This document shows positions 3,141 through 50,000 of a stretch of 64,000 nucleotides of DNA, piece after piece (the stretch's first letter is position 1; each line of letters starts with the position of its first letter). Below the pieces are notes generated by a model, which was not told the DNA's origin, ran no database searches, and saw nothing but the letters and a program-made list of their open reading frames with translations. Source of the stretch: Albula goreensis (lineage: Eukaryota > Chordata > Actinopteri > Albuliformes > Albulidae); the NCBI GenBank assembly GCA_022829145.1, contig CM040763.1:112842-176841 (forward strand), read 5' to 3'. The position numbers and the translations under genes are program-made.

Positions 3141-3234
<94 letters not shown>
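3135..3234. repeat. (TG)n microsatellite
   Basis: About 100 bp of nearly perfect GT dinucleotides. Confidence 0.97.
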
Positions 3235-3237
<3 letters not shown>

Positions 3238-3342
3238 TTTATAGCTACCGCTGCAGTCGTCAGGGTTACACAGTGTGCTCCAGTCTCACACTGCAGTCAC
3301 TAAGTTTATGCTGTGGGAGCCTCTCACTCACACACTGCAGTT

Positions 3343-6636: not shown

Positions 6637-6662
6637 TGTGCTAAACAGAGGAAGTGTTAAAA

Positions 6663-9362: not shown

Positions 9363-9905
9363 ACGGCACTGCAGAGAGGTTTCCGTCCTCAGCGCTGCCG
9401 AGAGGCTTCCGTAGTCAGCACTGCAGAGAGGTTTCCGTCCTCAGCACTGCCGAGAGGTTTCCGTCCTCAGGGCTGCAGAGAGGCTTCCGTCCTCAGCACT
9501 GCCGAGAGGTTTCCGTCCTCAGCGCTGCAGAGAGGCTTCCGTCCTCAGCACTGCAGAGAGGTTTCTGTCCTCAGCGCTGCAGAGAGGCTTCCGTCCTCAG
9601 CGCTGCAGAGAGGTTTCCGTCCTCAGCACTGCCGAGAGGCTTCCGTCCTCAGCACAGCAGAGAGGCTTCCGTCCTCAGCGCTGCAGAGAGACTTCTGTCC
9701 TCAGCACAGCAGAGAGGCTTCCGTCCTCAGCACAACAGAGAGGTTTCCGTCCTCAGCACTGCAGAGAGGCTTCCGTCCTCAGCACTGCCGAGAGGTTTCC
9801 GTCCTCAGCGCTGCAGAGAGGCTTCCGTCCTCAGCACTGCCAAGAGGTTTCCGTCCTCAGCGCTGCAGAGAGGCTTCCGTCCTCAGCGCTGCAGAGAGGC
9901 TCAGC
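9363..9905. repeat. minisatellite, 26-bp unit, ~20 copies
   Basis: Core AGAGAGGCTTCCGTCCTCAG with GCRCTGC or GCACAGC ends. A 256-codon frame across it is produced by the repeat. Confidence 0.93.
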
Positions 9906-10766
9906 AAAGAGGCATACATCCTTCCATGCTTTCTAGAAGTTGTAAACTTGTAAAAGTTGTTTCAGCCTTGGATGGGCAAAATATCTTAAACATCTGTTCT
10001 AAATGCAGGAACAGCTTCCTCCTAAATCTTTTTTTAACTAAAGCTGTTTTCAACAGCTTGATGATCACTTGCTATGGTGGGCTTTGATTGGAATTAAGAC
10101 GCCTCACAGCTGATGGCCGAAAGCTCATTGAGCAGACTGAATGAATCACAGAACCCCTCCCACTATGTGATCTGTTACCTGCTACCTGTAGTGGTGTGCC
10201 AGACATTTGTGACTGAATAGTGAGGAATGTATTTAATGAAAACACATGCACTCCAGTCATTGTTACTGAGGCGTACCAAGACATTACAAGCAAAGCTGCC
10301 CCAAGCTTTCTTTCATTTCATTGCTATCGCAACTATCTTTGGAACATTCCTGGGCTGCTTTTATATTTTGACATCATACTGGAAGGAGCCATCTCTACCT
10401 ATGACCAGCTTGTGTTGTTCCCTGCTCCAGTGAGTCTATAACACCTATTTCACATTGAACTATCTGTACCCGTCCTGAAAGAGCTGTAGTTGAAGGTGCC
10501 CTTGGGCCCCATAACATTGTTTGATGGAAAATTGTGAGAGAGAGAGAGAGAGAGAGAGAAAAACAGGAGGGGGGAGGAAGGGAAGGGGACTTTCCTCTGT
10601 GACCCATCCCTCTTCCTGGATTGAGTTGCCAGAAAGCAGGCCTCTGCTACATCACCCTTGCAGAAACACTGCAAAAAGGGTGCACGATTAACCCTACCAC
10701 TGCTCTCCATTACCAGCCTCAAGTTAAGTATGGTAGCTGTAGCAATCAGCCCAGTACAGTTTCGTT

Positions 10767-15704: not shown

Positions 15705-15986
15705 ATGGGGGATGGGGGGGTTGATGGTGTTGGCAGTGGAGAGAAAGTGAACCATGCCCATGCCCTGTTTGACCGCTTCGTCCAGGCTTCCACCTGCAAG
15801 GGCACGCTCAAGGCCTTCCAGGAGCTCTGTGACTTTCTGGAGCTGAGGCCCAGCGACTGCCGCATCTTCTACCACAAGCTCAAGTCCCGGCTCAACTACT
15901 GGAAGGCTAAGGCCCTGTGGGCGAAGCTCGACAAGCGCGCCTGCCACAAGGAGTACAAGAAGGGACGCGCCTGCGCCAACTCCAAG
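15705..15986 (+). CDS. mical3: mical3 exon 1 (first coding exon)
   Basis: 94 codons, phase 0 end. The start MGDGGVDG has a purine at -3 and G at +4. [20 protein letters not shown] and [20 protein letters not shown] are typical of the helical N-terminus of the MICAL monooxygenase. The acceptor after a CT-rich tract ends at 15643; the donor is AAG|GTCTGC. The glycine-rich first dozen residues are unlike other MICAL3 starts and come from a G-run. Confidence 0.93.
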
Positions 15987-18900
15987 GTCTGCCCAACACA
16001 GACCAGAACAACCACACTCAAAAACTCCTCTTTCCCACAGAATGAGGGAACTGCCTCTGTCCTCATCGCTGCCCATAAAACAGGCCTTTCCTGAACTCTG
16101 TCCACAGCACTGTCACTAAACCCCATGTAGAATCTCCATCAGGGCTCCTCTCCATCAGGGCTGCAAAGTGTCTGTTCTGTGACGTGTACTGAACAGTATT
16201 TTAAGATTTTAAGACTTTTTAACCATTTTATCTTTTTATTCTATATTAAATAATTGTGTGTGACTTTGTCACATTTTGTGACTCATGAGGACAGGTCGAA
16301 AAACTATAAGCCAGTTAAATAAGCTAAGTTAAATTAGCCACATTAAACGATTTAGCAACAAATATATGAAAAAGAAATGCAGTTTTGAATGTTTTGGTTT
16401 AGTAAGTGGGTTTTAATGCACAATTTAGAAAGTGCAACAGACTTTAGTGATGAAAATTTCTGCATTGCAAATCCACTTCAGGGTTTGTAACATTGGGGAG
16501 ACAGGTGGTTTGTGAGGTTGCAGATATCTAAAAGTAAGCACAGTTAGTTTCACACACTGATGTAATTGCGCGTTCCTGATAGGCATGTGTGGTGTTTTCT
16601 CTGCGCAGTGTCTCATCATTGGGGCAGGGCCATGTGGACTGCGCACAGCCATTGAGCTGGCCTTCCTGGGGGCAAAGGTGGTCCTGCTGGAGAAACGGGA
16701 CGCCTTCTCCCGGAACAACGTGCTGCATCTCTGGCCCTTCACCATCCAGGACCTGCGCGGCCTTGGCGCCAAGAAGTTCTATGGGAAATTCTGTGCTGGT
16801 GCCATTGACCACATCAGTAAGTCCTGAGCTAGCACAGCCATTAAAACTAGTGACTATATCAGTGAGTCTTGAGCTACCTCTACCGCTAATGATGCCGTAG
16901 CAGTGCTACTGCTAATGCTAACATCCATGTCAGTAAGTCTCAGTTTAGCACTGGCACTTAAAACCACATCAATGAATCCTGTGGTAGCACTGATAACAGT
17001 ATCAGTGATTCTGAGTGACAGCTATCCACTACATTAGGAAGTCCTGTCCCAGTATTCACTCTCTCCCTCTGTACTCTATAGTGTTGTTTGGTCTGTCTCT
17101 TTCTCTGTGCTCTGTTGAGTTGTTTGATCTCTCTCTTTCTGTACTATATAGTGTTGTTTGGTCTCTCTCTTTCTCTCTCTCCAGGCATTCGGCAGCTGCA
17201 GCTGGTGTTGCTGAAAGTGGCTTTGCTCTTGGGAATTGAGATTCACGTTAACGTGGAATTCAAGGGGCTGATTGAGCCCCCTGAGGAACAGGAGAACAAC
17301 AGTAAGGCCCCATGCAAGACCTCTATTGTTCATGGTGCTGGTGGGACAGAGTTATAAGAATACGCTGCAGTCTTATTAATTTACACATCTCCTTGTCCAC
17401 AAACTCTGCCAGCACATGTAGTCTATTTATTGTATTATTACCTAATTGTTAAGGTAGCAGAATAGCGGTAAAAAATGCATGTGTAGTTTCCCATATTACA
17501 TCAAAGGGAACTTTGTGTGATTAGTGACTCAGTCTGATGAGTCTATGCTGTGACTCAATGTGATTAGTGTGTGCTGTGACTCTGTGTGATTAGTATGTGC
17601 TGTGACTCTGTGTGATTAGTGTGTGCAGTGACTCTGTGTGATTAGTGTGTGCAGTGACTGAGTGTGATTAGTGTGTGCAGTGACTCTGTGTGATTAGTGT
17701 GTGCAGTGACTGTGACTCAGTGTGATTAGTGTGTGCAGTGACTCTGTGTGATTAGTGTGTGCAGTGACACTGTGTGCAGTGACTCTGTGTGATTAGTGTG
17801 TGCAGTGACTCTGTGTGAATTGTGACTGACTCTGTGTGAGTCTGACTGAGTGTGATTAGTGTGTGCTACTGTGTGACTCAATGTGATTGTGTGATTAGTG
17901 TGTGCAGTGACACTGTGTGATTATTGTATGCTGTGACTCTGTGTGATTAGTGTGTGCAGTGACTCTGTGTGATTAGTGTGTGCAGTGACTCTGTGTGATT
18001 AGTGTGTGCAGTGACACTGTGTGATTATTGTATGCTGTGACTCCGTTGCAGGGGTTGGATGGAGGGCAGAGGTTCTTCCTGACACACATCCTGTGAATGA
18101 GTTTGAGTTTGATGTCATCATCGGGGCAGATGGCAGGAGGAACACACTGCCTGGTAAGACTAAATGCAAATAATAAATGAAAATACAACTCTAAAGGACT
18201 CTGCATGTGAATCTAAACATTATTGTGTATCCATATTCCTCTTTGGACATGTCAGTTTATATTGCATGTATATTCCATGTAGGGTTGTATGTAAATACCC
18301 TGCTTTATGTCGCTTACTTGAGCTTTGTGCCCAGTAAATACCATTTTTGCTTTTTTTTATGAGTTTGTCATGTTATTTGTTCGATGGTGCTGTTACAATA
18401 GGGATTGGTAATTGCATGCTGCATGTATGCTGCATAACTGCGGTGTGTGTGTGTGTGTGTGTCTGTGTCTCTACAGAAGAGTAGTGCATATTCTGGTGCG
18501 TGTGTGTGTGCGCCGGTGTTTGTCTGCAGGTGTTTTTCCATGATAAGGGTCAGAATGATCAGAGGATTTTCTGTGTACTTCCTGTCGCCATCCAGGATTC
18601 CGCAGGAAAGAGTTTCGCGGTAAGCTGGCCATCGCCATCACTGCCAACTTCATCAATCGCCACACGTCAGCCGAGGCCAAGGTGGAGGAGATCAGCGGCG
18701 TGGCCTTCATCTTCAATCAGAAGTTCTTTCAGGACCTGAGGGAAGCCACGGGTATGTTATAATGCTGTTATTATCATGATGTTACACTGCTTTATTACTG
18801 ATTTATCACATGTCATGGAGAAGGAATCACATTCTGGACGCATCTCATTGTAAGATAGTTTATAGTTAGTATGTGAATGACTATACAGGCCTGATAATTT

Positions 18901-21900
18901 CCCTCGTCTACCAGGAGGTGTTGGTGACTGTGGTTGAAACTGTACCTCCATACAAGCATAACCAATTAATGATAATCGCTGGGCATGAGAATTTCAATGC
19001 ACAACATCAGTCGGCCGCTGTGTGGGGTTTCATACAACGTTAGCAGCAGTGACTGTGGAATCAATGTGGGAACTACAGTAGAGATAAAACACATGGAGAT
19101 CAAAAGAGAATTCTGTCTGCCAAAACATGTATAATTGTTACTACTCACAAAAATATGGGGCATAATTATTCCTCGTAACCATAGTTTCAGTGCTGGTAGA
19201 AGTGTGCTCCATGTAAGTTCTTCGTAAGCCGCCAGCTAGTTCAGTATAACTTTATCCCTTTGTAGCCTACCCCATGAGCAGATCTCTTCCAGACATGCAA
19301 CACCCCTCATTTAAAATATGGCTTTATGCAGATTGAGTCATTTACATAATGACTCAGTGAAATGAGAGTGTGTGCAAAATAACACAACTTAGTTTATTTG
19401 CAATTCTGGTAAATTTTTCCCTTAGCATGTAAACCACATTGGGGATATACTCAGACACTACTAGACAATTTAGCACCTGTAAAACTACTTCACTGGTGCA
19501 AAAAGATTAAGCGTGTGTTTGAGGTGGTTTGTTTGCTCCAATCATGTCACTGAAATTGCATGTTTAAAAATGTCAACATGTGTCACAGGCTTTGATAAAC
19601 CTGGTTCTTAGTTTGTAAACTGCAGTGGAGATATGATCACGCAGTGAGTGAATAAACTGCAGTGGAGATATGATCACACAGTGAGTGAATATACTGCAGT
19701 GGAGATATGATCACACAGTGAGTGAATAAACTGCAGTGGAGATATGATCACACAGTGAGTGAATAAACTGCAGTGGAGTATATGATCACGCAGTGAGTGA
19801 ATAAACTGCAGTGGAGATATGATCACACAGTGAGTGAATATACTGCAGTGGAGATATGATCACACAGTGAGTGAATAAACTGCAGTGGAGATATAATCAC
19901 ACAGTGAGTGAATAAACTGCAGTGGAGTAATGATCACACAGTGAGTGAAAAACTGCAGTGGAGATATGATCACACAGTGAGTGAATAAACTGCATGCTCA
20001 GGGATTGACCTGGAGAACATTGTGTATTACAAGGATGACACGCACTACTTTGTGATGACAGCAAAGTAACAGAGCCTATTGGAGAAGGGAGTGATCCTGC
20101 AGGTGAGTTACCTGTCTCCTGCCTACTGCACTCCTGCAGGACTGTAAGGACACTGCTGACCTCTCTCTCCTGCAGGGCTACAGGGACTCTGCTGACCTCT
20201 TTCCCCCCTTGCAGTACTACAGGGACACTGCTGACCTCTCTCCTGCAGAACTAAAGGGACTCTGCTGACCTCTTTCCCCCCTTGCAGTACTACAGGGACT
20301 CTGCTGACCTCTTTCCCCCTTGCAAACTACAGGGACACTGAGACCTCTCTCCTGCAGGACTACAGGGACTCTGCTGACCTCTTTCCCCCCTTGCAGTACT
20401 ACAGGGACTCTGCTGACCTCTTTCCCCCCTTGCAGTACTACAGGGACACTGCTGACCTCTCTCCTGCAGGACTACAGGGACTCTGCTGACCTCTTTCCCC
20501 CCTTGCAGTACTACAGGGACACTGCTGACCTCTCTCCTGCAGTACTACAGGGACACGGCTGTCCTATCAGCTGCAGAACTACAGGGACACGGCTGTCCTA
20601 TCAGCTGCAGAACTACAGGGACACGGCTGTCCTATCAGCTGCAGAACTACAGGGACACGGCTGACCTCTCTCTCTCCTGCAGGATTATGTAGACACAGAG
20701 CTGTTGCTCTCACGAGGGAATGTGGACCAGGCGGCCTTGCTGTCTTATGCTCGTGAGGCCGCGGATTTTTCGACCAATCACCAGCTGCCCACACTGGACT
20801 TCGCCATCAACCACTACGGCCAACCAGACGTTGCCATGTTTGACTTCACCTGCATGTACGCCTCTGAGAACGCTGCTCTGGTGCGTCAGCGCAACGGTCA
20901 CAAGCTGCTGGTGACACTGGTGGGAGACAGCCTGCTGGAGGTGAGGATAAGGAGGGAGGCAGAGAGGGGGAGATGGAAGGAGCAAAAGAGAGAGGGAGCA
21001 GCAGATGAGACAGTGAAGAGATAGAATTGTTTCTCCTCTTTCAGTGGCCAAAGCCCCACAAGCATGGACAGCGTTGTTCTTCAGCACTCCAGTTGTTATA
21101 ATAAACTATAACTGAGCTTGCACAGATCACATTAGAATTGAGAGGAACTTTTGAATGTGTGTGGTTTCAGCTGTGTTACTGAGACCCTGTTTACACTTTG
21201 TTTTAAAATGTGTTTCGGTGAACCAAACACAAGTGGACAGCCCAAGACACATCGCCGTTCACACCTGTGTCTATCATGCGTCTCCAGGGTGTCCAGCAGA
21301 CCACCTGTGTTCAGATATTACTGCCTACATCACTTCCTTATTTGACCGGTCGTGGCAATACACAGAGTTGTGATGAGTTTTTACTGGTCATGGACCTGAG
21401 AATGCCCACATAATGCACAGGCAGCTTTGGCCATGACCCAGATGTGCCTCAGATCACGCGCTGGGACTGCTGAAGTACACCCCTAATGTTACTGCACAGC
21501 TGTAATAGTGTTACTGTGTGGTAGTGCTGATGCTATGAGTAGCTGGTGTACCGCGGGATGCTAAGTGCGTGATCTTAACTGCGTCTTAGCTGGTGTGGTG
21601 TATGTGTATGGCTGTCTGTACTACTGACCAATGCTAAACAAGCAGTGTTAACTGTGTTTAGCCTTTCTGGCCGATGGGTACTGGTATCGCACGTGGATTC
21701 CTGGCTGCGATGGACTCAGCCTGGATGGTGCGCAGCTGGGCACAGGGCAGCTCTCCGCTGGAGGTCCTGGCTGAAAGGTGGGAGTGTCATCTCTTTCTGA
21801 GAATTAGCATCACTTCATTTATATGGCACTTTTTCACCAGCTGGTGCAAATTAAGGTGTTATACAATAGGAGGGAAGTATTTACAATAGTGAATAAAACA

Positions 21901-24900
21901 CTGGAACACTTAACTGTAGAACAGAATGTAGACACAGTAATGAATTACAATGGCATAGTAATTCCATCAAAACAATAAAAATATTGCCAGAGATTAAATT
22001 GATAAAGTTCTCTGACAAATTGGTGTTCTAGAAAAAGAAAATGTTAGTGAAAATTTGGAGTATGCATGTGACTTCTAAATATAGAGTAGATGGTAAATGA
22101 ATGTCAATATGGAGAAAAGTGTAAATGTTAAATGTTGAGCATGAATGTTGATAGTATGTTGATAGTATGTTTGAGTGTAAACACTGAGCAGAATGCTCAT
22201 GTTGGTGTACGTGTATGTTGTGAGTGTTAATGTTGAATGTGAAATGCTTGTCTTGCAGGGATAAGTAGCAAAAGGTTTTCATGATAAATATAAAGAGGTT
22301 ATAATAAAATTATACAATGCTGTCGTCACATGGAATATTGTGTGCAGTTCTGGGCACTGTGCTATAAGAACGATATACAGGGTCTTGAAAAACATACAAG
22401 AAGGGCACCTCTTGGCATGAACTATAAAAGTTCAGTACAGACTCAACCTATTTAGACATGGCGAAATGAGACTTAGGGGTACTTTAATCAAGGAGTTTTA
22501 ATTTATAAAAGAGCTGAGTGAAGTTAACTGCAATACATCATTTAGGGTGAGCTCAGTCTGTAGAACAAGGCGACATAATAGAAACTAGTTAAGAGTAAGT
22601 TCTGCACTGATGTAAGGAAGTATTATTTTAAACAAAGAGTTACCAACACATGGAATAGGTTGTCTGCTCAAGTAGTTAAGGTAGAGATTGCTCTTGCTGT
22701 ATTCAAGTCCATACTCAACACAGTTTAGAATACTCATTAGTTCTAATAGCAAGCTTTTGGTCAGTTGGTTTATTCTCACCATCATATATTCTTATGTGTG
22801 ATCTCTTGCGTCTCTCCGGCGTCTCTCTAACTGCGGTCCTGACAGGGAGAGCATTTACCGTCTATTGCCTCAGACAACCCCAGAGAATGTCAGCAAGAAC
22901 TTCAGCCAGTACAGCTTGGACCCCACAACCCGCTACCCCAACATCAGCCTCAACTTCCTGCGGCCTGCTCAGGTCTGTTCCCCTCCATCACTAACCAGTT
23001 TCAGTTTTCATTTTAATTTTGGTGATGCAGATAATGTTGACTGTGATGGTGATGATAAATATGTTTGTGGTGGTGATGGGGAATATATGTACGGTCGTAT
23101 TGACGGAGAGGAGTTTGTGTGTTTACCTGCCGGTCGCAGGTGCAGCATCTCCTAGACACCGGGGAGTGCAAGGATTCGCGAGTTCATTTTGAAAATATGA
23201 TCAACGCTTCAACACCCAAACTAAAGCGAAATGGTGAGGAGCTTATAAACCTCTCCTCTGTGCTGCTGGAACAAAATATTGTCTGCTGAGTGTTTTTGTG
23301 TTTTAAAGTTCAAAAATGACCTGTCAGTGGAAATGTAATTTTAGATTTTTAGTTTGCCTTCCTAAGGCATTGAAAATTGTCATTCAGTCTTTGAAAAGCT
23401 GTTGGTGTGAGATTTACATTCAGATTTGTTGTATTTTTAATGAAATGTAATTGTATCATTCTTATCCTAGAAAATGATCAGCATCAGAAGCTTTTGCAAG
23501 GTAACATTGCAGGGGACAGCAGAGATGTGCATGCTGTGATTTGACTGGTTAAAAAAGGAGCACTGGCTCTTCAGTCAGAGAAGAAACTGAACTCTGCAGG
23601 ATGCATGGCGGGGCAAAATGTTTATCACTTAGTTGGCTGGGGTCATTCATGCATTATTTGCAGAGTAACGGTAACTTGCCTTGTGTGTATACACCAACCC
23701 AGCCTTAACTGTAATAAACTGTTAATGCAGATTTGTTTTTAACCAAAAGAACCAACCCCAGCCAAGTAAGTGAAATGTGTTTACTCATATTTACCTCCTG
23801 ATTAACATTCAGCTCCAGAATTGGAAATGACTGTAACACAAAGGTTCGAGGCCTTGGCCACATGACAGTTTTTACTGGTGCTGCTTTCGTCATATGACTA
23901 ACAAGGGCTGGTGTCACTGGACAGGCTGTTGAAGCAGGGTGTCAAGACTAGTGAATGGCAGGCCCTTCCATTTTGGCTCATTGCCATTGTGCTGTGCTGT
24001 GTTGCCCAGAATCTATTGCTCGCTCCAGCAAGCTGCTGAGCTGGTGCCAGCGGCAGACTGAGGGCTATCAGCATGTCTGCGTCACCAACCTCACCACATC
24101 CTGGAAGAGTGGCCTGGCACTGTGTGCCATCATCCACCACTACAGGCCTGACCTCATGTGAGTCCCATAATGCATTGCTTCTGTCAGTCCCTTTATGCTT
24201 GTAGTAATAATGAGCTGGTAGGTGAGAGGTTGCATGTTTCGTTACCTTGAAAAAGGTGTTTTGGTTTAATTCTTCCTAAACTGTAAAGCTGTACAAATTG
24301 CAGCTGTGAATAGCCTTGATTTTGTGCTGCATTCTGTGCTCATGCTAACAAACAGAGTTTAGCTCTGTGATAGTACTAACACACTGGAGTTTGAATCTTC
24401 TGCTTGCAGTGAGTTTGACTCTCTGGAGGAGCGGGACATTGAGGGAAATAACCAGCTGGCGTTTGATGTGGCAGAACGGGAGTTTGGCATCTCCCCCATC
24501 ATGACTGGGCAGGAGATGTCGTCTGTGATGGAGCCTGACCAGTTGTCTATGGTCATGTACCTCAGCCAGTTCTATGAGATGTTTAAGGATATGGTGCCCC
24601 CTGGTGGTGAGTGTCAGAACCACAATGCATGCTGGCTCCTGCAGGCTCAGGTTTGGTGTTATTGTGAGCTTGTCTGTCTCTTTCAGAGAAACAGGGCCTG
24701 AGTCCTGAGCAGAAGGCAGCTCTGATCGCCAGCAACAAGTCCCCCATCTCCTTCCTCAGCATGCTGGGACAGACCGTCTCCCGCAAACGTGTCCCCAAGG
24801 CAAGGCTGCGCCCACCTCGGGCTGACCCACACTGCATAACACCAGCAGGCAGTGTTACGTTTCTTTCCATATTTTTCCTTAATCATACCAGACATGGTAA

Positions 24901-27900: not shown

Positions 27901-30900
27901 TTTTCATAAACATACATTTTTAGCTCAAATGTGATCATCAGAAAAACCAAGCCAACTGTTTAGAGCAAGCAAGCTCCTGCCAACCCAGCAGGGGCAGGTT
28001 TATGCAGGAAGAGCAGCTTTTCCACCCTGTAAACATCTTCAAAAATATGAATGGTCTCACACTTGCTTTATGCTTCTGAAATTGTATTTTACAGTTTTAT
28101 AGTCAGTAAGTTTATGTAATGCTGCCTCCTTGACCGGTTCTGGAAAAAAAAAAGCGTAAACCTTGTCAAGCAAACGTTTAAAAATATTTTCTCCATGAAC
28201 CACTGTGCTATTAAATTTTAATCTTTATATAATCAGGTTAGAATCAGCTGAGAATTCAGGTCTCTCCTCTTCCTCCCCTTGTCTCCTGCCTTTTCTCTCT
28301 CTCCTTCTCTACTCTCTTTTTTTCCTGCTGTGGGTAAAGGTGATGGGCTTTGGGGGTGGTTTGGCATAATTTGGGGACTCTGATTGGTCAATCACAGGGG
28401 GATTCCATGTCCAGTTTGGAGTTCTTGATGCTCCCTTCCCCGCCCCCTGCCCCCACCAAAGAGCCCGCCAGTCATGGTGCCGCCCCCACCTGGAGACAGG
28501 TAAACAGTGATCCCTCCACAGCCGGAGAAGTCCTATCCTGTCCCCATAGTGCCCTACCCTACTGTCAGTGCTTCTGTTGACCCGTTGAGGGCATATTTTG
28601 TTCATTAGTTTTGCAATAGGGCTTTGATGTGTTCAGTAGTTGTATGAATTGAGTTGTATTGGGTTTAGTAGTTGTGTTAATGCAGTCATTTTGTGTTCAA
28701 TAGCTGTATAAATAGAGTTTTATTGTGTGAAGTGGCTGTGTTAACAGGCTTTGTGCCACTAACATTTGTAGTAGCTCCAACACAGTGGAAACCTGCGTGA
28801 GTGTGATGTTTAGTGTATATGGGTTGGATATTCTCTGACTGTGTTGTGATTCAGTATGAATAGGGCAGTGCTTTTGAGGTTGCAGGTTTGAATCTGGCAT
28901 TATAGTGTCTAGCTGAATTCAGGGATAAAAGCTGAAATAGCATGACCCTGTGTGTTGTGGTGGCTCAGCTGTAATGGTGGGTTTACACCAATGCAGCACT
29001 TCCACTCTGCTCCGGCCAAAGATGCTCATGTCAGTGGAAAGAGGCAGGCGAGCGGCCATGCTCATCTTTCCACAGGCTGCAGAGCCAAACTTGAGTAGGG
29101 GCTGCTCTGTGTCCCTGAGGACTGAGCGCAACAACCGATCACATGGAAGGAAGAGGGCTGAGCGCACCAACCAATCGCATGGAAGGAAGAGGGCTGAGCG
29201 CACCAACCAATCGCATGGAAGGAAGAGGGCTGAGCGCACCAACCAATCACATGGAAGGAAGAGGGCTGAGCGCACCAACCAATCACATGGAAGAAAGAGG
29301 GCTGAGCGCACCAACCAATCACATGGAAGATGGCTGAGCGCACCAACCAATCACATGGAAGAAAAAAGCACAAAATTCCATCCAAATTGATGGAGAAACC
29401 TATGAGTGTTCCAGCAGTCAGTTTGTCAGAGAGCAGGAAGTACGGTTTGTGTAAATCTAACACGGGAAGTGTGTAAGAAAAACTGTAAGGCCAGAATGTG
29501 TTCCAATCTCTTTGTGTGTTGCATTTTCTCTCTCCCTCTCCTTCCCTCTCCTCTCTCTCTCTCTCCCTCTTGCTCTCTCTCTCTCTGCATCTCCCCCTCT
29601 CCCTCCCTTCCTCTCTCTCCCCTCCCTCCCTCCCCCTTCCTCTCCTCCCTCCCTCTCTCTCTCCCTCCCTCCCTCCCTCTCTCTCCCTCTCCTCTCTCTC
29701 TCTCTGCATCTCCCCCTCTCCCTCCCTTCCTCTCTCTCTCTGCATCTCCCCCTCTCCCTCCCTCCTCTCCTCCCCCTCTCCCTCCCTTCCTCTCCCTCCT
29801 TCCCTCTCTCTCTCTGCATCTCCCCCCCTCTCCCTCCCTTCCTCTCTCTCTCTCCCCTCCCTCCCTCCCTCCCCCTCCCCTCCCTTCCTCTCTCTCTCTC
29901 CCTCCCTCCCTCCTCTCTCTCTCTCTCCCTCCCTCTCTCCCTCCCTTCCTCTCTCTCTCCTCTCCCCCTCCCTCCCTCCCTCCCTCCCCTCCTCCTCCCT
30001 CCCCTCCCTCTCCCTCCCTCCCTCTCTCCCTCCCTCCCTCCTCTCCTCCCTCCCTCCCTCCCCTCCCCCTCCCTCCCTCCCTCCCTTCCTCTCTCTCCCT
30101 CCCTCCCTCTCTCCTCTCTCTCTCCCTCCCTCCCTCCCTCCTCCCTCCCTCCCTCCCTCTCTCCCCCCCTCCCTCCCTTCCTCTCTCTCCCTCCCTCCCT
30201 CCTTCCTCTCCCTCCCTCCCTCCCTCCCTCCCTCCCTCCCTCTCCCTCCCTCTCTCCCTCTCTCCCTCCCTCCCTCTCTCCCTCCCTCTCTCTCAGCGAC
30301 GCACTCAGCAGCAAGAGCAGCTCAGTTTCCGCTACAGGGAGAGGCTGAAATGCAACACGTTGCCTAGTCGAGGGGAGCAGGTAGGACTCCCAACTGCAGG
30401 ACCCAAATCCACCCACCCCGGTGCATTCCACTAGCTCCTAGCTTTAGCTTTTATCTCTTAGCACCCACCCCAGTGCATTCCACTAGCTCCTAGCTTTAGC
30501 TTTTATCTCTTAGCACCCACCCCAGTGCATTCCACTAGCTCCTAGCTTTAGCTTTTATCTCTTAGCACCCACCCCAGTGCATTCCACTAGCTCCTAGCTT
30601 TAGCTTTTATCTCTTAGCACCCACCCCAGTGCATTCCACTAGCTCCTAGCTTTAGCTTTTATCTCTTAGCACCCACCCCAGTGCATTCCACTAGCTCCTA
30701 GCTTTAGCTTTTATCTCTTAGCAACCCACCCCAGTGCATTCCACTAGCTCCTAGCTTTAGCTTTTATCTCTTAGCACCCACCCCAGTGCATTCCACTAGC
30801 TCCTAGCTTTAGCTTTTATCTCTTAGCACCCACCCCAGTGCATTGTTCTAGCTCTTTGCTTAAGCTGGTATCTCTTAGCTTTTAGTTGTTTCCTTGATGG

Positions 30901-32043
30901 TAAGTTATGGTCATAGTTTGTGGGACGTTTAAATTTTTTCCAGCATAACTCTTTCATAGCTGCTTGCTGTGAATTTGATTAATGCAGTTAACACACTGAA
31001 GTACTTTATATCCCTTGTTAGTTGAACTGTTTCACCATGTCTGTTAAATGGATGCAACAAAGAGAATTAGTGGTTATTTGGGGTGAATCTAATGGAGGAA
31101 TAAAATCACTCTGACATTTCTACAGTTGTCCACTTGTCTTCTCACTCAACTACAGAGAGACCTTCCTGCCTGAATGCTTCGTTTCCATCTGCCAGTGTTT
31201 AAACCCTGAGCAATCATGCAACACTAAGGAAAAGCAAAGTGCCTTCCCCTTCCCACAGTAAACAGCTGCTCTGTCTTAAGTTATCCTGCTCTCTGTCTCT
31301 CTGTCTCTCTCTCTCCTGTTTCTATAACCCAGTTTATCCACTGCACTCTGGATTTCACATCCAGGTTGCTTTATGAGCTAACGGTAGTGCATTTATCTAT
31401 ACACGACTGCACTCGACTCAACTTTCTTCTCTCGAATTTATTTGAATCTTTTCTATGTACTTGTGCAAGTCCTCTTACTACAGAACTACTACAGAACTCC
31501 TTTCTGCTCTCATTTTCCTGTTGGTCTCCCTTTTTCTTCCACCAATGGTAGAGATATGTTAAGAGATACACTGGTGGAGTGAGTTCATTGGCTGAGCAAA
31601 TAGCCAATCAGCTTCAAACTCAGGAGGAGCCCAAGCCTCTACTAGACAAGAGGGAAGTGGTAAGAGTCAGCGGTCTGCACACCTGTATTTACACAGTCTG
31701 AAACACCACTTTTGTGTAGGGCAGACGTGTGATTAGGCAATCTGAAACACTATGTTTGTGTAGAGCAGGCATGTGATTGGACTGTCTGAAACACCACGTT
31801 TGTGGAGAGCAGACATGATTGGGCAGTCTGAAACACTATGTTTGTGTAGGGCAGGCATGTGATTGGGCAGTCTGAAACACTACGTTGTGTAGAGCATAGA
31901 GCAGGAATGTGATTTGTCAGTCTGAGGTCCTGTGCTGGTGTAGGGCAGACAAATGATTGGACATTGCTGGACAAGCATAGTACTTGTGTGTGTGTGTGCA
32001 CACGAGAGAGACAGAGAAAAAGTGTGTGTGCGAAACCGAGAGA

Positions 32044-32078
<35 letters not shown>

Positions 32079-35000
32079 TGTGTGTGTGTGAGAGAAACAG
32101 ACAGAGAGTGTGTGAGAGAGAGTGTGTGTGTCTGTGTGTGTGAGAGAGAGTTTCTCAGTGTGTGTGAGAGAGAGTTTACTCAGTGTGTGTGAGCAAGAGA
32201 GAGTTTTCTCAGTGTGTGTGAGAGAGAAAGTTTTCTCAGTGTGTGTGAGAGAGAGTTTTCTCAGTGTGTGTGTGAGAGAGAGTTTTCTCAGTGTGTGTTT
32301 TGTTTGGCTCCACAGACATCCCTGCGGAAGGAGTTCCCCCAGAACCTCGGGGGCAGCGACGTGTGCTTCTTCTGCCAGAAGCGTGTGTATGTGATGGAGC
32401 GGCTGAGCGCCGAGGGCAAGTTCTTCCACCGCAGCTGCTTCAAGTGCGACTACTGCGGCACCACACTGCGCCTTTCCTCATACGCCTTCGACGTGTGTGA
32501 CGGTGCGTCAGCCAATCAGTTTACAGCTGCTACCATGCCTGTGCTGCAACCTGTGAACCTGCAGATAGCACTGCACTGTGCTAACCAATCAGCATTATTG
32601 CACATGCTGTGCTAACCAATCAGCATCCAGAGCTATCTGTGTCTGTAACACCAGAGGAAAAGATATAGAGTAACATACATACAAACACAAACACAGAAAA
32701 TTAAATATAAATACAGAATACATGTATACTCATAGTCAGAATGAGAAATGTTGAAACCAACAGAAATCTGAATAAAAAAAGGAGAGACACATCACATGTT
32801 GCAGGTGAATATGACTTTATGAATATGTCTTTGCTCTTTTCTTGTAGGGAAGTTCTACTGCAAGCCACACTACTGCTACCGGCTGTCTGGCCAAGCTCAA
32901 AGAAAGAGGCCCGCCCCTACTGTGGCCCCACCCACTGCCCAGGTACCCGCCCCTCAGCACTCTGCGGCCGCCGTATGCATGAGAGCTGACCATGTCATGC
33001 ATGGCCTGATCATTGAGGGGCCCTGGTGTGTCTCAGATCTGACAGATGTACCAATTTACATGTGTAGTGTATCATACGCACTCGTGTATAATGCACACCC
33101 CTAATTATGGACAATGAAATCCTGGAAAAAATCTCTCCTGTATAAAACGCACCAACTTTTCCTTAGTTTCATTTCAGGTTGTCAGACATGGAGATAGCAA
33201 TTGCAGGCCATGTCACGATGTATGGAAAAAGTGATGTTTAGGCAGATTTATTACAAATGCGGAATAATATACTGAATAAAATCATATTTTCATCATTACT
33301 AGGGGTGTAACGGTAAGTGTATTCGTCCTGAACCGTCACTGTACGGCCGTTACGGTTTGGTGAATGCAGTCAGTCGGAGAGTGTGCGGTAGCCTGTGTGC
33401 GAAGATTGATGAACGTAATGCGGAACCAATGTCGGTTATCCGCCTAGATTAACAATAAAACAAACGATGCACCGAATAATCAATACCAATCGTGTAAACA
33501 CAGTAAATGATTGTCAGTGTCGTTCTGTGATACTGTTTTTTTGCTAACTAGTTGAGGCCTGTGTGCCAAACTTTATTGTGCATTGCACTCAACGCAGATG
33601 CAGATATTAAGTGTAGCACAAAGGTGTGTTACCTGTAAGGTATTAACTGAATCAGGTGTATGGTAATAGTCTGCGTGTAGTGCAGGGTTTTGTTACGTAC
33701 CGCAGGTGCATGTAGGTAAGCTACTCTTCTTTCTGCTCCCTCCAGGAGGCTCAGGCTCCTCCACCAGTTCCTGTCACCTTGGATATGTCAGGGCAGGCAA
33801 ATTTGGCGTCTCTTACAGAGCGACGGCCCTCAGGTACTCCCCTACCCCTCTGCAGTATGCCCTGGGGGCTGGGGGCCTCACTACCCTGCCTGTATCGTGC
33901 AGTCTCTCGCTCTTGCCACCAGGTGGTGCTGCGCCCCTTAGACTCCCCTTTCCTTTGTACATACTGCCTGTACCTGCTCTCCTGCTTCACTCTCAATGTC
34001 CTGCTCAGCTTCCTCTAGCACACTTGAACCTGCACAACATCCCCCAGCACACCTTTCCCCTCAAACTAATCTACTGTATTGTGTGAGTATGTAACCTTTT
34101 TTCTGCTGCAGTTTGTGTGTGAATCTGGTGTTGTGACTTTGAGACTTTCTGCTACTGAGGGTGCATTATTTTGTAATTGTCAACAGCCTATCAGCAGCTC
34201 CCAAAGGGACTTCTGCCTGTGCTCAGTGGTTGGTTTAGTCTTTAACCAATACATTCCAGCATTGTGATTGGCTCAGTCTTAACAACTTACCATTTCAGTG
34301 CTGTGATTGGTTCAGTCAGTGTCAGACCAGACCTATCAGAATGCTGCATCCTTGTCACTGGTCTGGGCCTCTGAGCCTGGTAGGGTGTGAAACCCTCTCA
34401 GTTTGTAACATCTGCACGCATGTCTGTATTTCATAGGCCAGTAGCAGAAACTGTCAGCTCTTAGTTCCGCTGCTATGATGCTTCTACCTCACAAATGTCC
34501 TAAATGTAGAACTATAAAAGCTGTTATCCTTGGCCGGTGCTTTTGTAGAAATTCTGACTCTGTGATTGTAATTTGTAGTTTCCGCGACTATGTGAGCTTT
34601 ACCTTTCTCCATCCAATCAGAGCAGCTCGCTCCCTTTCTCCATCCAATCAGAGCAACTCGCTCCCTTTACACTTGCAGTAAAGGAGTAGTTTCCCTTTCT
34701 TTAACCAATAAGCTCAGCTCACTCTTACCTGCTTGTGATTGATTTTTTTGGTGTGCATCTCAAGTATCTATCCCTCAGTTGCTTTCCTCCTCTGTCTTTT
34801 TATTACTCTATTCCTCCGGTTCTGCTGTCTGTGGAGATCAGCCTCATGTTTGTTGTTGTGGGTAGTTAAGTTATTGAAAGAAGTCAAAATGATTAATTTA
34901 TTGGTGATTAGTTTTATGTGATAAATGACTTTTCAAAGCAGTGACAGAGGTGGTCACTCAGCAGGTACCTTTACCAGTCAGTCTGTGCTGGAACTGCTGA

Positions 35001-38000: not shown

Positions 38001-41000
38001 GTTCGCCTCACTTTAATCCCAACTAAACACCTGTAATGTTCTGTTGTGCAAACTCTGCTGGCTAATGCTGTGAATTTGTACTGTGTGAGGGCCTTACTGC
38101 AGGACGGCACGGTAGCATTAAGCACATGCAGCATCGCTGCTGATTCACCAGCCTTACTCCTGCTACTCCTGGCACTCCATGCATTAAGTATTTGCACTGC
38201 AACAAGATTTTTTCAATTGAAATATTACTTTGGAAATATTTCCACTGAAATGCTTTACCCCCACTCCCCCAATATTATTCTTCCAATATTATTTCTTTTC
38301 TCACAATATTATTTTGGTTTATTTTGTACTGTGCATCTTTGTGTTTGTTGTGTGCTGTGTTTGGTTTGAGGTTAGGCCGCACCCATGCAGAGCGCCAGGA
38401 GGCTGTGAGAGCGTGGGTGGAGTCACTGTCTGGAGGTAGCCCCACCCTCCTCCCTGTGCCATGTGACCATATCCACCGCCTCGCTTGCCTGCTTTCCTTA
38501 GTATGGCCGCACACATCTGCATGCCACGTTGCCATGGCAGCAAACACCTGCTCGCCAAATTGCCATGGCAGCACACAGTTGTATGCCACGTTTCCATGGT
38601 GTCAGAACTCCTGCAGGAGAGATGCAAGTCTGTCCAAGCACCCAGAGGACCCTAACCCTAACCCTGACCCGTCTCCACACCACCTCAGCTTGCATTCCTC
38701 CATAGCTAGTGCACCTCTGCTTCTCACATTCCACTGCCTGTCAACCCGTAAAGTTCGTCAGTCTCAATGCTGTCTAGCGGCCACTCCTGGTTATTGGAGC
38801 TGAGAAATTTGCATCTGAAACACTGGTGTATGTGTCTGAATGGACAAACTGTGTGCATGTAGCTGACAACTCATGTCAATATCACCCGCATTTAAGCATG
38901 GAGGTTGCTGTGCTTCATATGCATAGTACATTTCTTTATGTTGGTTACTAAATGTGCATGTTATGCCATGTTGACGTTGTATTTAGAACGTTGTGCACTT
39001 TGTGATGGAAGACTGATATTTTTTCAAAAATGTGTATTTGAATGAGATCAATGAGAGATTTTCTCTTCATGAATCATTTTTAGGATGTTAAAAATGTTCT
39101 TTCCAACACACTCTTTACTCCATAAAGCAGAAGAGAGGCCTGAGTAGAGCAGTATATATCAGCACAGGACTGAGACAGACTAACCCTAACCATAACCCTG
39201 ACTGATACAGACACACTTACACGCTGATTGGTATCCTAGATTAGCACAGGACTGATACAGACACACTTACACGCTGATTGGTATCCTAGATTAGCACAGG
39301 ACTGATACAGACACACTTACACGCTGATTGGTATCCTAGAGCTCTGTGAGGAGGAGGAGGAAGATGGGGATCCTGGAGGACTTAATCTGGAAATTGGCAC
39401 CGAGCTTGATGAAGGTTAGCGTGCGTGTGTGCATGTGTGAGAGAGAGAGAGTCTGCATGCATACCTTCTATGTTTGATTTGTGCACATATAACATCTTTG
39501 TTGTCCATTGCAGAGAACATTCCCTCTGATGTAGAAGCAGAGCTGAAGCCCTCGGCAGCCAGTGAGAGGCAAACCCAGAGACCCGGTAGTGCTTCTGCCC
39601 CCTACATGTGACACACAGTACAACAGGAGAGTCAGTAACTATTTTACACTCTACAGGTCACACATAGTTCTGCAGGAGAGCCAGTGACTATATATACTGT
39701 TTATTGAAGGAGAGGTATAAATCTCAATGGCTGCGTGCAGTCTTTATGCTAAACTCCAGCTGTTTTCATTTATGGCCTCAGTTTGTTATTCTCTCTGTCA
39801 TTGTTAGATTTATGCCACAACCCAGGACCCTCATGTATATGCTATGATATGCCACCTAATGCTTTTGATTCATTTTTATTTTCAGTGAAATCCTCTGTCA
39901 GTCCACAGCAGTCGCTTGGTGAGGATGTGTTATCACCAGCCAAGGATGTTCATCAGGTAGAGGTTTGTACTGAGTTCACAGTGTGGGCTCTCATATTTGG
40001 CCAAAGAACAGGTTATAGAGTCATTCTTTTGGATTGGTTTTGCTGGATTTGTGCTTGTTTATTTATGCTTGTTTATATGCTTGTGTTTTTGCATCGTTAA
40101 CATGCTCATACACTCAGTATTGTATGCGTTAGAAACAGTGCTGCCTGTGTGTGTTGCAGGCCTCTGTAGCATCTCCACCTCCTTACCTGCTCAGATCTGG
40201 CCTGCGTTTTTTCCCTGAGCCGTTTCCTCCAGATGAAGCAAAAACACAGCAGACCCCTGAAAGTCCAGATGCAAAGAGCCCTCGTACCCCTAAACCCTCT
40301 GGCTCCCCCCAACACTCCCCCCATACCCCCACACACCTGCAGCCCAGTCACCTGCCAGATAGCGTACATCTAGACACGCCCACCAGCATCTCCATCTGCC
40401 TCCCCCTGCCCAGTGGTGAGCCTGCCCCGCCCCTTCCCCCTGCCACGCCCTCCAGGGCTCCACCCGCACCTCCATCCATGCCACTGCTTCCCCCTGCCAC
40501 GCCCTCCAGGGCTCCGCCTGCACCTCCATCCACGCCACTGCTTCCCCCTGCCACGCCCTCCAGGGCTCCGTCTGCACCTCCATCCACGCCACTGCTTCCC
40601 CCTGCCACGCCCTCCAGGGCTCCGCCCGCACCTCCATCCACGCCACTGCTTCCCCCTGCCACGCCCTCCAGGGCTCCGTCCGCACCTCCATCCACGCCAC
40701 TGCTTCCCCCTGCCACGCCCTCCAGGGCTCCGCCTGCACCTCCATCCACGCCACTGCTTCCCCCTGCCACGCCCTCCTCACCAAAGCAGGGATGCAGCAG
40801 CAGCTCAGGGCCAGGGCTGATAAACGATGGCTACACTCCGGACTCCACACTGCTAACCCCGCCCTCCAGCCCACCACCCCCACCCCCACCCAATGAGGAG
40901 CCTGCCTCCCTGTGCTGCAAGAAACACTCCATCTCCCAGGAAGCTGTGCCTGCGGCCACACCTACCCCTGTGCTGGAGCCCAAAGTGGCCCCCCGTCCTA

Positions 41001-44000
41001 CTGGGGGGCTCTGCCGACGGGACGCTGTCCGCATGCGTCACCAAGACAAGCGGCCATCTTTCATGGACAGCGTGGATGACATCCCCTACGCCGATGATGA
41101 GGAGGATAACTGGGAGGAGTGCACACCTGAGCTCTCACCTAGAACAAGCCAATTAGAGCCCACCGCCCTGCCCAGAACCAGACAATTAGAGCCCACCGCC
41201 CTACCCAGAACCAGCCAACCAGAGCCCACCGCTCTGCCCAGAACCAGCCAACCAGAGCCCACCACCCTACCCAGAACCAGCCATCCAAAGCCCACCGCCC
41301 TGCCCAGAATCAGTCGACCAGAGCTATCCCCCCTGCCCAGAACCAGCCAAACAGAGCTCTCCCCCCTGACCCGAGCCAGGCAACCAGAGCTCTCCGCCCT
41401 GCCCAGAACCAGCCAAACAGAGCTCTCCCCTCTACCGAGAACTAGCCACACCACATGGGACACACCACCCTGCCTACCCCTGAATGGTCTTCCCAGAGTT
41501 CTTGCAGTTGGGGGGCGGAAGGGCGTGACGGAAGTTACAGCACAGGTACGGTTGGTGGCAGAGGAGCGCTTGCGTGAACGTGAGAAGTCCATAAAGAGCC
41601 AGGCACTGAAGGACGCTATGGCCCGCCAGCTCTCGCGTATGAAGGAGGCTAACACCTCCAGCATGCCTGGTGCAGCAGCCGCCGCCATGGACTCTGGGAA
41701 GGCCAATGCTCTGCTGGTGCCTGGCTCAGACCCGGAGACACACAAGCAGGGAGAGCTGCAGCTGCCCGACGAGGTGTTCACCACTGAAGGAGACGGGCAC
41801 AGCGCAGAGGGCTCAGGCGGGCGCAGAGCGGAGGGCTCAGGCGGGCGCAGCGCGGAGGGCTCAGGCGGGCGCAGCGCGGAGGGCTCAGGCGGGCGCAGCG
41901 CGGAGGGCTCATGCACCTCGTCTGGGAGCTCGGCAGGCCACAGAAATAAAAAGAGTAGCTCGCTCTTTTCCCCACGCAAATCCAAGAAGGAGAAGAAGGC
42001 CGAAAACGAGCTGGGCGATGACCCACCTAAACACAAGTCCCTCTGGAAGACTGTGTTCTCCGGGCACAGGAAGGACAAGAAGAAGGAGGAGTCACAATCC
42101 AGCTCTCTCACTGGCTCGGGCGCCGTCGACACTGTGGAGAGGAGAACCTCGCCTCGCAGCAGGTCCTCCGGTGAGATCTGGCAGGCACATGGGCACGCCT
42201 TTCCTGTGTGTGTGATTAATGTGTGTGTGTTTAATAATAATTACTTTATTATAAAAAAACTTTAATAATAAAACTTTATTTATCACCTTTCAGGCATGTC
42301 ACACAGTTTCATAAACTGTTTCATAAAATTAATTTAAATTTAATTAAAATCTCTGAGTGGCTTAGGGGTAAAACAGTCGCCTGGGAGCCCTGAGTTTGGG
42401 TGTTCAAATCCCAGCCTTACCGGTACCAGTTATGGACTGAGGCCTTGCATTGGCAGTAGTTGGGCCTCGCTGGGAATGGTAGGGGTGTAAGCCAATATGA
42501 TCCCTCTCTAGAGAACAAAAGGTGCACAAATCGAACATAATCTGACTGTAATCAGTGTGGTTGGCATGGATTGGCAGGGGCTGGTTGGCATGGGTCGGCA
42601 GGGGCTGGTTGGCATGAGGTGGAGGAATCGTGTCATGGTTGCTGCAATGGGCTAAAAAGTTTGGCCAACTTCAGTGTGGGGAAAAAAGACTCAAGTGAAT
42701 TGTCTGTTGTGTGTTTCCTGTGTGTTCCCTGCTGCAGACCTGCAGCTGCAGAGGAGGCCAAGTCTGTCAGAGGACTCTGATCTCTCCTATGACGATTTAC
42801 TGCAGCACTCTGCCCAGAAATCCAAGGGAGATGTAAGTCTCACAATGAAGTTTAAAAAACATGCACACACTCATACTCACTCCTCACACACTCCAACATA
42901 CCTGTACACAAACACTCACTGCTAACCCACATGCACTTCTCACTTTAATGCTGGCGTCCTCTCAATGCACAGGTATCCATGCTAATTCAGAAATTCTGCC
43001 AGCACAGTCCTGTGTTCAGTGTGCTCTGCCCTTACACCTCGCTGAGAAACAGTCTCTTAACTGCTTTTCCTCAGCTCAGTTTGAATGGTCATCACTGTGT
43101 TCTGTCATGTGAAAGTGTTGTAGTCTCTGGTGCAGCCCATGGTTATAGCAGGTGTACATTTTCTTCATGATTTCACACTTCTAGCTTCGTCTTGATCTTC
43201 GTATCTTTGACCTGGTATCAGACGTTCAAAAGGACACAATAAAGGAGGAGGAGGTGGAGGTATTGAAACAGAACAGTGGGATGAAGGCTTTTGTGTTTCA
43301 AACAGGAAATAAACATAACATAACATGGAAAGCTTTAAAATATACCAAGTGAAGATTTTGCAGGTTTAGTGTGTTAAACTGTAAGCATATGAAGAAGCAC
43401 TCTGGATTCCCTCTGCTCCAGTCCAGTGTGTTTATTGTTTTCCAGGAAGAAACACAAAAACCCTGTCCCCTCTCCTCTCTTTCTGAGGAGCTCAGAGCCT
43501 TGGGCATGAATTCCTTATCATACCACTCCAAACAAGAATTTTACAGAGTTGGATATCGTGTGAATAGGGCACAATTTTGCTGCAGGACATGTAGCTGCAT
43601 TTAAATGGGTACTGTTAAAGTAGTAGCATCACTCTTTTACTTACTGCTTCACAGGAGTGTTATAAAGCCCCACTCTGCTACACACTGCTTCACAGGAGTG
43701 TTATAAAGCCCCACTCTGCTACATACTGCTTCACAGGAGTGTTATAAAGCCCCACTCTGCTACACACTGCTTCACAGGAGTGTCATAAAGCCCCACTCTG
43801 CTACATACTGCTTCACAGGAGTGTTATAAAGCCCCACTCTGCTAAATACTGCTTCACAAGAGTGTCATAAAGCCCCACTCTGCTACATACTGCTTCACAG
43901 GAGTGTTATAAAGCCCCACTCTGCTACATACTGCTTCACAGGAGTGTCATAAAGCCCCACTCTGCTACATACTGCTTCACAAGAGTGTCATAAAGCCCCA

Positions 44001-47000: not shown

Positions 47001-50000
47001 AGGAAACCCCCTCACAGCAGTGTGCTGTGTGTGTTGAGTTAGCTGTTAGCAGAGCCCTGTGTGTGTTATAGGAAACCCCCTCACAGCAGTGTGCTGTGTG
47101 TGTTGAGTTAGCTGTTAGCAGAGCCCTGTGTGTTTTATAGGAAACCCTCTCAGAGGGTTTTACAGATGCCCACAGCCTGCCAGGCCGCGGGCACAGTTGG
47201 CATCCACAGGGCATAGAGATGTTGGGGCCAATAAGGCGCTCACCTGGGGCCAATTTCTCATTCTCTCCCTCATAGAAAAAAGCTGTGAGAAAAAAAAAGC
47301 GTGGGTCATCGCTCGTGACCTCGCGGGAGTCCTCGTGCCCAACGGAGGTGATTGGAGTGTTGGTGGCTGTGAAAGAGGCCTCTAGTCTAAGTGTCTCTGA
47401 AACGCTATTTCAGAAAGCGTACACGGAGGAAGAGCTGAATGCCAAGCTGACACGGAGAGTGCAGAAAGCCGCCCGCCGACAGGCCAAACAGGAAGAGCTC
47501 AAGAGACTGCACCGAGCCCAGGTAAGTGACCAATGGGAAAGGTTTTTATTACACAAAGCCTATGTAAGTGACCAATGGGAAGGGGTGTACTACACAGTGA
47601 ATCTGTATGATATAGTCCAGGATGTCTTAAAATAATCTAGATACAGGTATTGTTTGTACGGTGGTGTGTGAATGTAGTTGAGTTGTGGTAACTGTTTTGT
47701 AGAATGTGAATTTTGGTGATATGTGAGTAGTGTGTTTTGTTTATGAGTAGCGTGTGAGTGTTGTGTGTTTAGTTTGTGATTAGTGTGTGAGCAGCATGTG
47801 TGTGGTGTGTTTTGTTTATGAGTAGCGTGTGAGTGTTGTGTGTTTAGTTTGTGATTAGTGTGAGCAGCATGTGTGTGGTGTGTTTTGTTTATGAGTAGCG
47901 TGTGAGTGTTGTGTGTTTAGTTTGTGATTAGTGTGTGCGTAGCATGTGTGTGGTGTGTTTTGTTTATGAGTAGCGTGTGAGTGTTGTGTGTTTGTGATTA
48001 GTGTGTGCGTAGCATGTGTGTGGTGTGTGCAGTGTGCGAGTAACTCTGCCGTCTCCTCAGATTATCCAGAGGCAGCTGGAGCAGGTGGAGGAGAAGCAGC
48101 GGCAGCTGGAGGAGCGCGGTGTGGCTGTGGAGAAAGCCCTGCGAGGGGAAGCAGGTACCCACTCTCCCTGGCCTCTGTGTGCTAGCTGGTCTGCTAGCTG
48201 TGCAAGCAGCTACAGACTGTCATTTATACAGCAGAATACAGATTCTAGAAATGGTCATAAAACACTTTTTTAATTTTTTCTCCTGATCATCTAACGTTAT
48301 TCAAATGGGGAACCACATTCTAATTTCTCCACATACCCCAGTGTGTTTACTCAGGAAAGGTCTGTGTACTGATACGGTCTGTAGCGTGTAGAGGTCTGTG
48401 TGCTGGTACAGTCTGTAGTCTGTGTGCTGGTACAAACAGTCTGTAGCGTGTAGAGGTCTGTGTACTGATACGGTCTGTAGTGTGTAGAGGTCTCTGTGTA
48501 GAGGTCTGATACAGTCTGTAGGTCTGTACTGAAACAGTCTGTGTAGAGGTCTGTGTACTGATACGGTCTGTAGTGTGTAGAGGTCTGTGTACTGATACAG
48601 TCTGTAGCGTGTAGAGGTCTGTGTGCTGATACGGTCTGTAGCGTGTAGAGGTCTGTGTACTGAAACAGTCTGTAGCGTGTAGAGGTCTGTGTACTGAAAC
48701 AGTCTGTAGCGTGTAGAGGTCTGTGTACTGATACGGTCTGTAGTGTGTAGAGGTCTGTGTACTGATAGAGGTCTGTGTACTGAAACAGTCGTGTAGAGGT
48801 CTGTGTCTGTAGCTGAGGTACGGTCTGTAGTGTGTAGAGGTCTGTGTACTGATACTGTCTGTAGAGGTCTGTGTACGGTCTGTAGGAGGTCTGTGTGCTG
48901 GTACAGTCTGTAGCGTGTAGAGGTCTGTGTACTGATACGGTCTGTAGTGTGTAGAGGTCTGTGTACTGTAGAGGTCTGTGTAAACAGTCTGTAGCGTGTA
49001 GAGGTCTGTGTACTGATACGGTCTGTAGTGTGTAGAGGTCTGTGTACTGATACGGTCTGTAGTGTGTAGAGGTCTGTGTACTGATACGGTCTGTAGCGTG
49101 TAGAGGTCTGTGTGCTGATACAGTCTGTAGTGTGTAGAGGTCTGTGTACTGATACAATGTCCAGTTTGTTGCATGGAACACCAGCATGTTTTCTTCTTCC
49201 TCCTGTTCTTCTTCTTCTTGCTCTTGCAAATGGCTGGTTGTTGACCAGGCCTCTGTGCAGTAACCCTTACCAATTTGTCCTTATTGTAGACTATTGGGGA
49301 GATTCTAATTACAGTGAAATCTTGGACTTACATCTGGGGGGTATGTATTTCAAACCTGCTGCTTAAGACTAACAGCAAAACCCTTGACCTTCCTTCCTGT
49401 TCCCTTTGCATCTCACTCAAATGTAGAGGCAGTCTTTTGTAACACTGTCCTGGTGTAGCACCATGTTTTCCTTTGTTGATACAAGATTCTCCACCCTTTC
49501 TGTTTTGACTCGCATCTCGAAGTAACTGGAATAGTACAATGTAACTTTCACAGTTGTGCCCCGTGAAAGTACATTCTTCTTTTGCATTAAGAAAGAAAAT
49601 CTCTTGCATTGTGTTAATTTAAAATTTAATATGTAGTTACTGTCATAGAAATATTGTGTGTTTTAAAAGTTTTGGCAATTGCAAAATTTGGAACCACTGT
49701 GAATTGAAATCCTGTCACATTACAAGGTAAAGAGAAGTTGACAATAATGGAGCCACATTCCCCCGGGTTAGACCAGCTTTACATTAAAATAGTCTGAATT
49801 GTGCTCTGAGATCCATGTGATGTAGCTATCGTCAGTGGTCATTGGGGGAATGCTGAAGCTGCTGTGTGTTTCTTGTGTGTTTCGTTGAGTTGCTTAGTGA
49901 GCCGGAGTAGACTGAGTCGTTTGGGGGGCTAATGTAGATGTGTGTTCTCATCTCTCACTATGAGTCTCATATGAGGTGGCAGTATGAGTGAGTGTGTGTG

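Follow-up and report, generated by a model that had tools for sequence, protein, structure and literature searches.

A lone in-frame stop codon in the enzyme domain of a duplicated mical3 gene in a fish genome

Introduction

The best described counterpart of the gene considered here is human MICAL3, represented in our comparisons by the chains 6ici (MO-CH) and 5szg (bMERB), whose domain order equals that of our gene and whose redox function is described as necessary for its promotion of vesicle fusion (PMC4617701). A second point of comparison is offered by the MICAL-like proteins, which carry CH, LIM and bMERB domains with no monooxygenase (MO) domain, and whose existence without a flavoprotein region is recorded in PMC3645671; these resemble the product that our gene might yield from a hypothetical downstream start, but they are encoded by separate genes, whereas the gene described here still has its MO exons, which are constrained. 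A third is the class of rare reference or tolerated loss-of-function alleles, which, according to PMC4416239 and PMC4572071, can be carried by a reference or a healthy individual; unlike the stop codon in this fish mical3, those alleles are human data. No teleost mical3 with a lost enzyme is named in the excerpts of the literature searched on MICAL3 and on teleost duplicates.

The locus analysed here is a window of 64,000 nucleotides (C23:112842-176841, on a contig of 25.9 Mb), studied together with the genome from which it derives (931.9 Mb in 208 contigs). It holds a mical3 gene that reads Lys-stop-Gln within the MO domain, at a site where human MICAL3 (6ici), two MICAL1 chains and a second mical3 of the same genome all read Lys-Lys-Gln. 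Its identity with human MICAL3 amounts to 257/298 residues in the MO domain before the stop, 159/179 after it, 88/113 in the CH domain and 134/149 in bMERB.

Results

The gene was modelled as 33 coding exons on the forward strand (15705-50740; 6,222 nt, or 2,074 codons including the terminal stop), most of them found by a bait search and their borders set by eye, the variable middle exons being predicted solely from their open frame, their phase and their splice borders (Table 1). Phases are consistent throughout, and the introns start with GT except for one of the 32, that after E13, which starts with GC. The spliced sequence contains exactly two stops, the terminal one and the TAA at codon 311, inside exon 6. 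An earlier note on this DNA had reported this in-frame stop and had called it an isolated lesion; our model confirms the first statement, and the second is borne out by the finding of no other internal stop or frame break in the 33 coding exons. Judged from the sequence, a lone stop in an otherwise open gene of 2,073 codons, at a position occupied by Lys in all the relatives compared, is to be regarded as beyond chance.

Table 1. Features of the mical3 locus (positions are those of the 64,000-nt window)
Feature	Position	Strand	Remark
E2, first coding exon	15705..15986	+	ATG at 15705
E3-E5b, MO domain with FAD motif, ahead of the stop	16609..18751	+	
37-bp minisatellite, about 10 copies	19616..19994		stops 7 bp short of exon 6
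Exon 6, 101 nt, phase 1 in and phase 0 out	20002..20102	+	sole copy in window
In-frame TAA, mical3 codon 311	20067..20069	+	
34/39-bp minisatellite in intron 6	20131..20672		repeated acceptor-like sequences
E7-E10, MO domain past the stop and linker, open	20683..23233	+	
E11-E12, CH domain	24010..24606	+	
E16-E17, LIM domain	32316..32942	+	
E26, 2,011 nt	40160..42170	+	coding minisatellites of 54, 33 and 24 nt
E29-E33, bMERB (Rab-binding) domain and terminal stop	47276..50740	+	

The assignment to MICAL3, also made previously, holds on the best matches of both ends of the protein: the MO-CH part scores 1269 bits against human MICAL3 (6ici) and 731 against MICAL1, in a list that held no MICAL2 MO chain, and bMERB scores 253 bits against human MICAL3 (5szg), the next best match reaching 160. 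The CH domain alone gives 189 bits with MICAL-3 and 173 with MICAL-2. Pfam matches over the cut-off, in MICAL3 order, comprise a MICAL Rossmann domain divided by the stop, followed by CH, LIM and bMERB; what the gene lacks is an uninterrupted MO reading frame.

A genome search with the 126 MO residues past the stop gave ten matches, two exons at each of five loci, namely that of the window on C23 and others at C1:68.91 Mb, C1:30.18 Mb, C15:17.69 Mb and C12:37.57 Mb. We take C1:30.18 Mb and C15:17.69 Mb to be mical2 and C12:37.57 Mb to be mical1, as recognised from their sequences rather than from a tree. The locus at C1:68.9 Mb is by its sequence a second mical3 (C1:68.85-68.92 Mb), with matches across MO, CH, LIM and bMERB in the exon order of the window gene; genome searches with bMERB and MO, in which the best candidates were scored, give two mical3-class loci and revealed no third. 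With seven exons omitted beforehand (E18 and E21-E26) and E14 and E29 not found by the rule applied, 24 of the 33 exons were aligned between the copies, which gave 1,128 codon pairs, the C1 side being free of stops. MO identity is 276/293 before the stop and 166/177 after it. The MO exons of the C1 copy are stop-free, the nine acceptors checked there (E3-E10) all end in AG, and its exon 6 is open and has a better acceptor than that of the window copy. The notion of a second, intact mical3 is therefore upheld as regards the presence of the copy and its open enzyme region, but is qualified by the 5' part of its E29, which has a TGA in the window's frame just before C1:68867093. The corresponding stretch of the window (47276-47413) is open and, from its sequence, may be an intron or an optional exon: E29 may begin at 47276 or, through an inner acceptor, at 47414, with the frame kept in either case, and TTTCAG stands ahead of the conserved part of E29 in both copies, where an inner acceptor would keep the frame.

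Data bearing on an origin of the pair in the teleost genome duplication, with which the presence of a second mical3 agrees, are the dS of 0.57-1.01 between the mical3 copies, the two mical2-like loci and eight homeodomain-dense clusters. These last lie on C3, C5, C6, C12, C14, C19, C20 and C22, as if eight Hox clusters had been kept, which would be in keeping with a fully retaining teleost, for example an elopomorph. Matches between the flanks of the gene (35.6 kb and 43.2 kb) and the C1 region were confined to minisatellite, GT-repeat and one 58-bp match, all in the upstream flank, and the downstream flank gave no match to that region. The two regions were also characterised in composition: the window (1-64000) has 125 TRF minisatellite rows, overlaps counted, and a CpG observed/expected ratio of 0.27, and the C1 region (89.9 kb) has 15 CpG-rich stretches. 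Contig C23 begins (1-10000) with 841 N followed by about 9 kb in which 226 TTAGGG and no CCCTAA are spread through a longer satellite, subtelomere-like DNA in an orientation unexpected for a left end.

The minisatellites of E26 (40433-40777, 54 nt; 41141-41453, 33 nt; 41794-41911, 24 nt) all have units that are multiples of three, so that the predicted protein has tandem repeats. Between E30 and E31, an open stretch of 51 nt (49290-49340) falls within 105 bp that match the C1 copy at 87.6%; it is likely to be an alternative in-frame exon. E28 is also 51 nt in length, and the regulated 51-nt Mical3 exon adjoining the coiled coil that is described in PMC12721327 could have its counterpart in either. 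Two open segments between the CH and LIM domains, 30297-30380 (84 nt) and 31552-31659 (108 nt), match the C1 copy, have splice-like borders and are probably alternative in-frame exons as well; 43203-43302, between E27 and E28, matches the C1 copy at 75% with borders that are unlike in the two copies, and is possibly an exon.

Exon 6 itself is contained in a 136-bp island flanked by minisatellites at 7 bp and 28 bp. The 37-bp minisatellite occupies the place where the pyrimidine tract would be, and the acceptor tract is poor: scored with a simple approximate matrix, which was used for all splice sites, the acceptor of exon 6 (-1.5) is the second lowest of the 32 in the gene, that of E19 being lower (-3.9), and its fall from 5.6 in the C1 copy is the largest among the nine acceptors compared. 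The C1 copy has no minisatellite of this kind next to its exon 6. These values suggest that the poor acceptor may be a second weak point of exon 6, poor inclusion of which would likewise break the frame. In the intron 6 array, eight decoy AG sites score at least 5 beside the genuine acceptor of exon 7. On the idea that this array is a copy of the start of exon 7, junction alignments of the two beat nearly all of 2,000 shuffles, a signal owed mainly to the acceptor and pyrimidine tract; with exon sequence alone (5,000 shuffles), the comparison is not significant in the window copy (fraction 0.49) and weak in the C1 copy (0.02).

Splicing around the stop was examined in some detail. As had been proposed, neither the skipping of exon 6 alone (101 nt, phase 1 to 0) nor the joining of the GTAACA donor at the stop to the exon 7 acceptor keeps the frame. 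Among 378 single junctions continuing to the end of exon 7 (7 donors by 54 acceptors), 32 remove the stop and keep the frame, each deleting at least 14 residues, and all 32 use either a donor scoring -0.6 or less (the real exon 6 donor scores 8.5) or an acceptor scoring -1.4 or less (the real exon 7 acceptor scores 10.0). Since the model itself accepts sites down to -1.7 for donors (E32) and -3.9 for acceptors (E19), weak sites are not impossible. Frame-keeping skips of up to six whole exons that include exon 6 are E3-E6, E3-E7, E5b-E10 and E6-E10, each costing the enzyme region between 228 and 314 residues. No second or alternative exon 6 was found in the 64,000-nt window. Rescue of the frame through local splice sites was rejected, as the sites available are weak.

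The single change from AAA to TAA put forward in the earlier note is an assumption: the counterpart of codon 311 is AAG in 4/4 other loci (the C1 mical3, two mical2 and mical1), from which TAA requires two changes. At the 53 codons with AAG in the C1 copy and Lys in the window copy, the latter uses AAG 46 times and AAA 7 times, so that a one-step change from AAA is possible at best. Within codons 290-321 of exon 6, 14 codons differ from the C1 copy, of which 13 are synonymous and the other is the stop; codon 322, the last of the exon, which falls outside the automatic comparison, is CAG in the window and CAT in the C1 copy (Gln/His).

Constraint was estimated between the two mical3 copies by the method of Nei and Gojobori. 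Values of dN/dS are 0.030/0.84 for the MO domain before the stop, 0.036/1.01 after it, 0.068/0.98 for CH, 0.036/0.57 for LIM and 0.040/0.61 for bMERB, the MO ratio being about 0.036 on either side of the stop. With the human protein as reference, changes peculiar to the window copy versus those peculiar to the C1 copy number 9 versus 2 in the MO domain before the stop (293 positions), 1 versus 6 after it (177), 5 versus 0 in CH (111) and 5 versus 2 in bMERB (111); both copies differ from the human sequence at 31, 18, 20 and 9 sites, respectively. None of these contrasts reaches the 5% level (p 0.065, 0.125, 0.062 and 0.45, in the same order), although the 9:2 before the stop and the 5:0 in CH hint at a slightly higher overall rate in the window copy, which the part after the stop does not share.

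If 0.72 of changes are taken as residue-altering, the 95% ceiling on a neutral phase is about 1.2% divergence from the single change in 177 codons and 1.7% from 10 changes in 470. Neutral rates are a few per billion years, and such a phase would thus have lasted no longer than a few million years. When 496 MO codons were made to diverge neutrally by 2% in a simulation, about 21 residue changes arose, together with about 1 stop. The MO domain, its part past the stop included, is as constrained as that of the C1 copy, which argues that a loss, if there is one, either happened very recently or has yet to be fixed; its unrelaxed state implies that the lesion is recent, segregating, bypassed or a base error. 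Ancient pseudogenisation was rejected, since constraint persists after the stop, and of the marks of a pseudogene, multiple lesions or relaxed constraint, neither was found, though the weak acceptor of exon 6 may count as a second lesion. The suggestion that one mical3 duplicate is losing its enzyme fares unevenly: a second mical3 does exist, but a decay of the enzyme half already under way is not supported.

Discussion

We regard a recent nonsense allele in exon 6 of this mical3 duplicate, for which the other copy provides a buffer, as the probable explanation of these findings; a loss-of-function allele in one of two duplicates is of a well-known kind. Translation of the transcript would end at residue 310, within the MO domain, and the part of that domain beyond it, including a conserved stretch of 14 residues, would be lost. 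A stop many exons upstream of the end of a message makes it a target of nonsense-mediated decay, as should be the case here, and removal of the mical3 message in this way would leave little or no full-length enzyme from the stop allele. The C1 mical3 would supply the function, which would allow the allele to be tolerated. The substitution counts carry no sign of older decay and thus argue that the allele is young or still segregating.

A base error at one codon of an intact mical3 is a less probable but tangible alternative, for which we would allow a minor share of likelihood. Conservation of the MO domain on either side of the stop, the restriction of the damage to one codon, and the position of exon 6 between two closely adjoining minisatellites are all in its favour, polishing being hardest, and liable to fail, beside such repeats. 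Against it, the assembly is unlikely to be noisy: no stop occurs in any of the 150 cadherin domains scored (the best of 1,622 candidates, amounting to some 14,000 codons), nor in 147 of the 150 homeodomains scored (the best of 560), and the three homeodomain matches with a stop all end at model position 53 of 57, probably by running on past the end of the exon. Only the best candidates were scored in this check, a choice that hides broken domains and biases it against them; its clean outcome nevertheless makes assembly error the less likely reading. No further stop or frame break occurs in the window gene, nor any stop in the 1,128 codons compared in the C1 copy, and one error on an assumed AAA, or two on AAG, would be needed.

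Much less probable is that the window mical3 has become an enzyme-free adaptor of the MICAL-like kind, its CH, LIM and bMERB domains translated from a downstream start. Every downstream domain is open, in-frame ATGs follow the stop at codons 374, 380, 413 and later, and, as noted above, proteins of this composition do exist. However, the MO exons past the stop are unrelaxed, and the earlier proposal that these parts survive through a downstream start finds no backing between exons 6 and 11, where comparison of the non-coding segments with the C1 copy gave nothing at E 1e-6 and the search for CpG islands was negative; a downstream island serving as alternative promoter was accordingly rejected. 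The two CpG islands that were found lie at 29901-30300 and 41501-42200. We give equally little credence to a more elaborate scenario, in which the stop is fixed in the lineage and this duplicate has just lost the actin-oxidising enzyme, its CH, LIM and Rab-binding parts being kept as a Rab8-type adaptor, such that the roles of enzyme and scaffold are split between the duplicates; the acceptor-degrading minisatellite may then have come first, making the stop tolerable.

Bypass of the stop by frame-keeping splicing, read-through or RNA editing, giving a near-full-length enzyme, is very improbable: continued MO constraint past the stop would suit it, as would the 32 frame-keeping junctions, some no weaker than accepted sites of the gene, but these are the weak, residue-deleting junctions described above, whole-exon skips cost far more of the enzyme region, the window has no second exon 6, and A-to-I editing of UAA gives Trp at best.

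Returning to the recent nonsense allele that we favour, its significance depends on the reality of the stop. Were the TAA a base error, the locus would stand as a warning for gene annotation next to minisatellites. If it is real, it would show a duplicated gene at the very start of losing its enzyme, captured ahead of other clear decay, in a family whose members join an actin-oxidising enzyme to a Rab scaffold.
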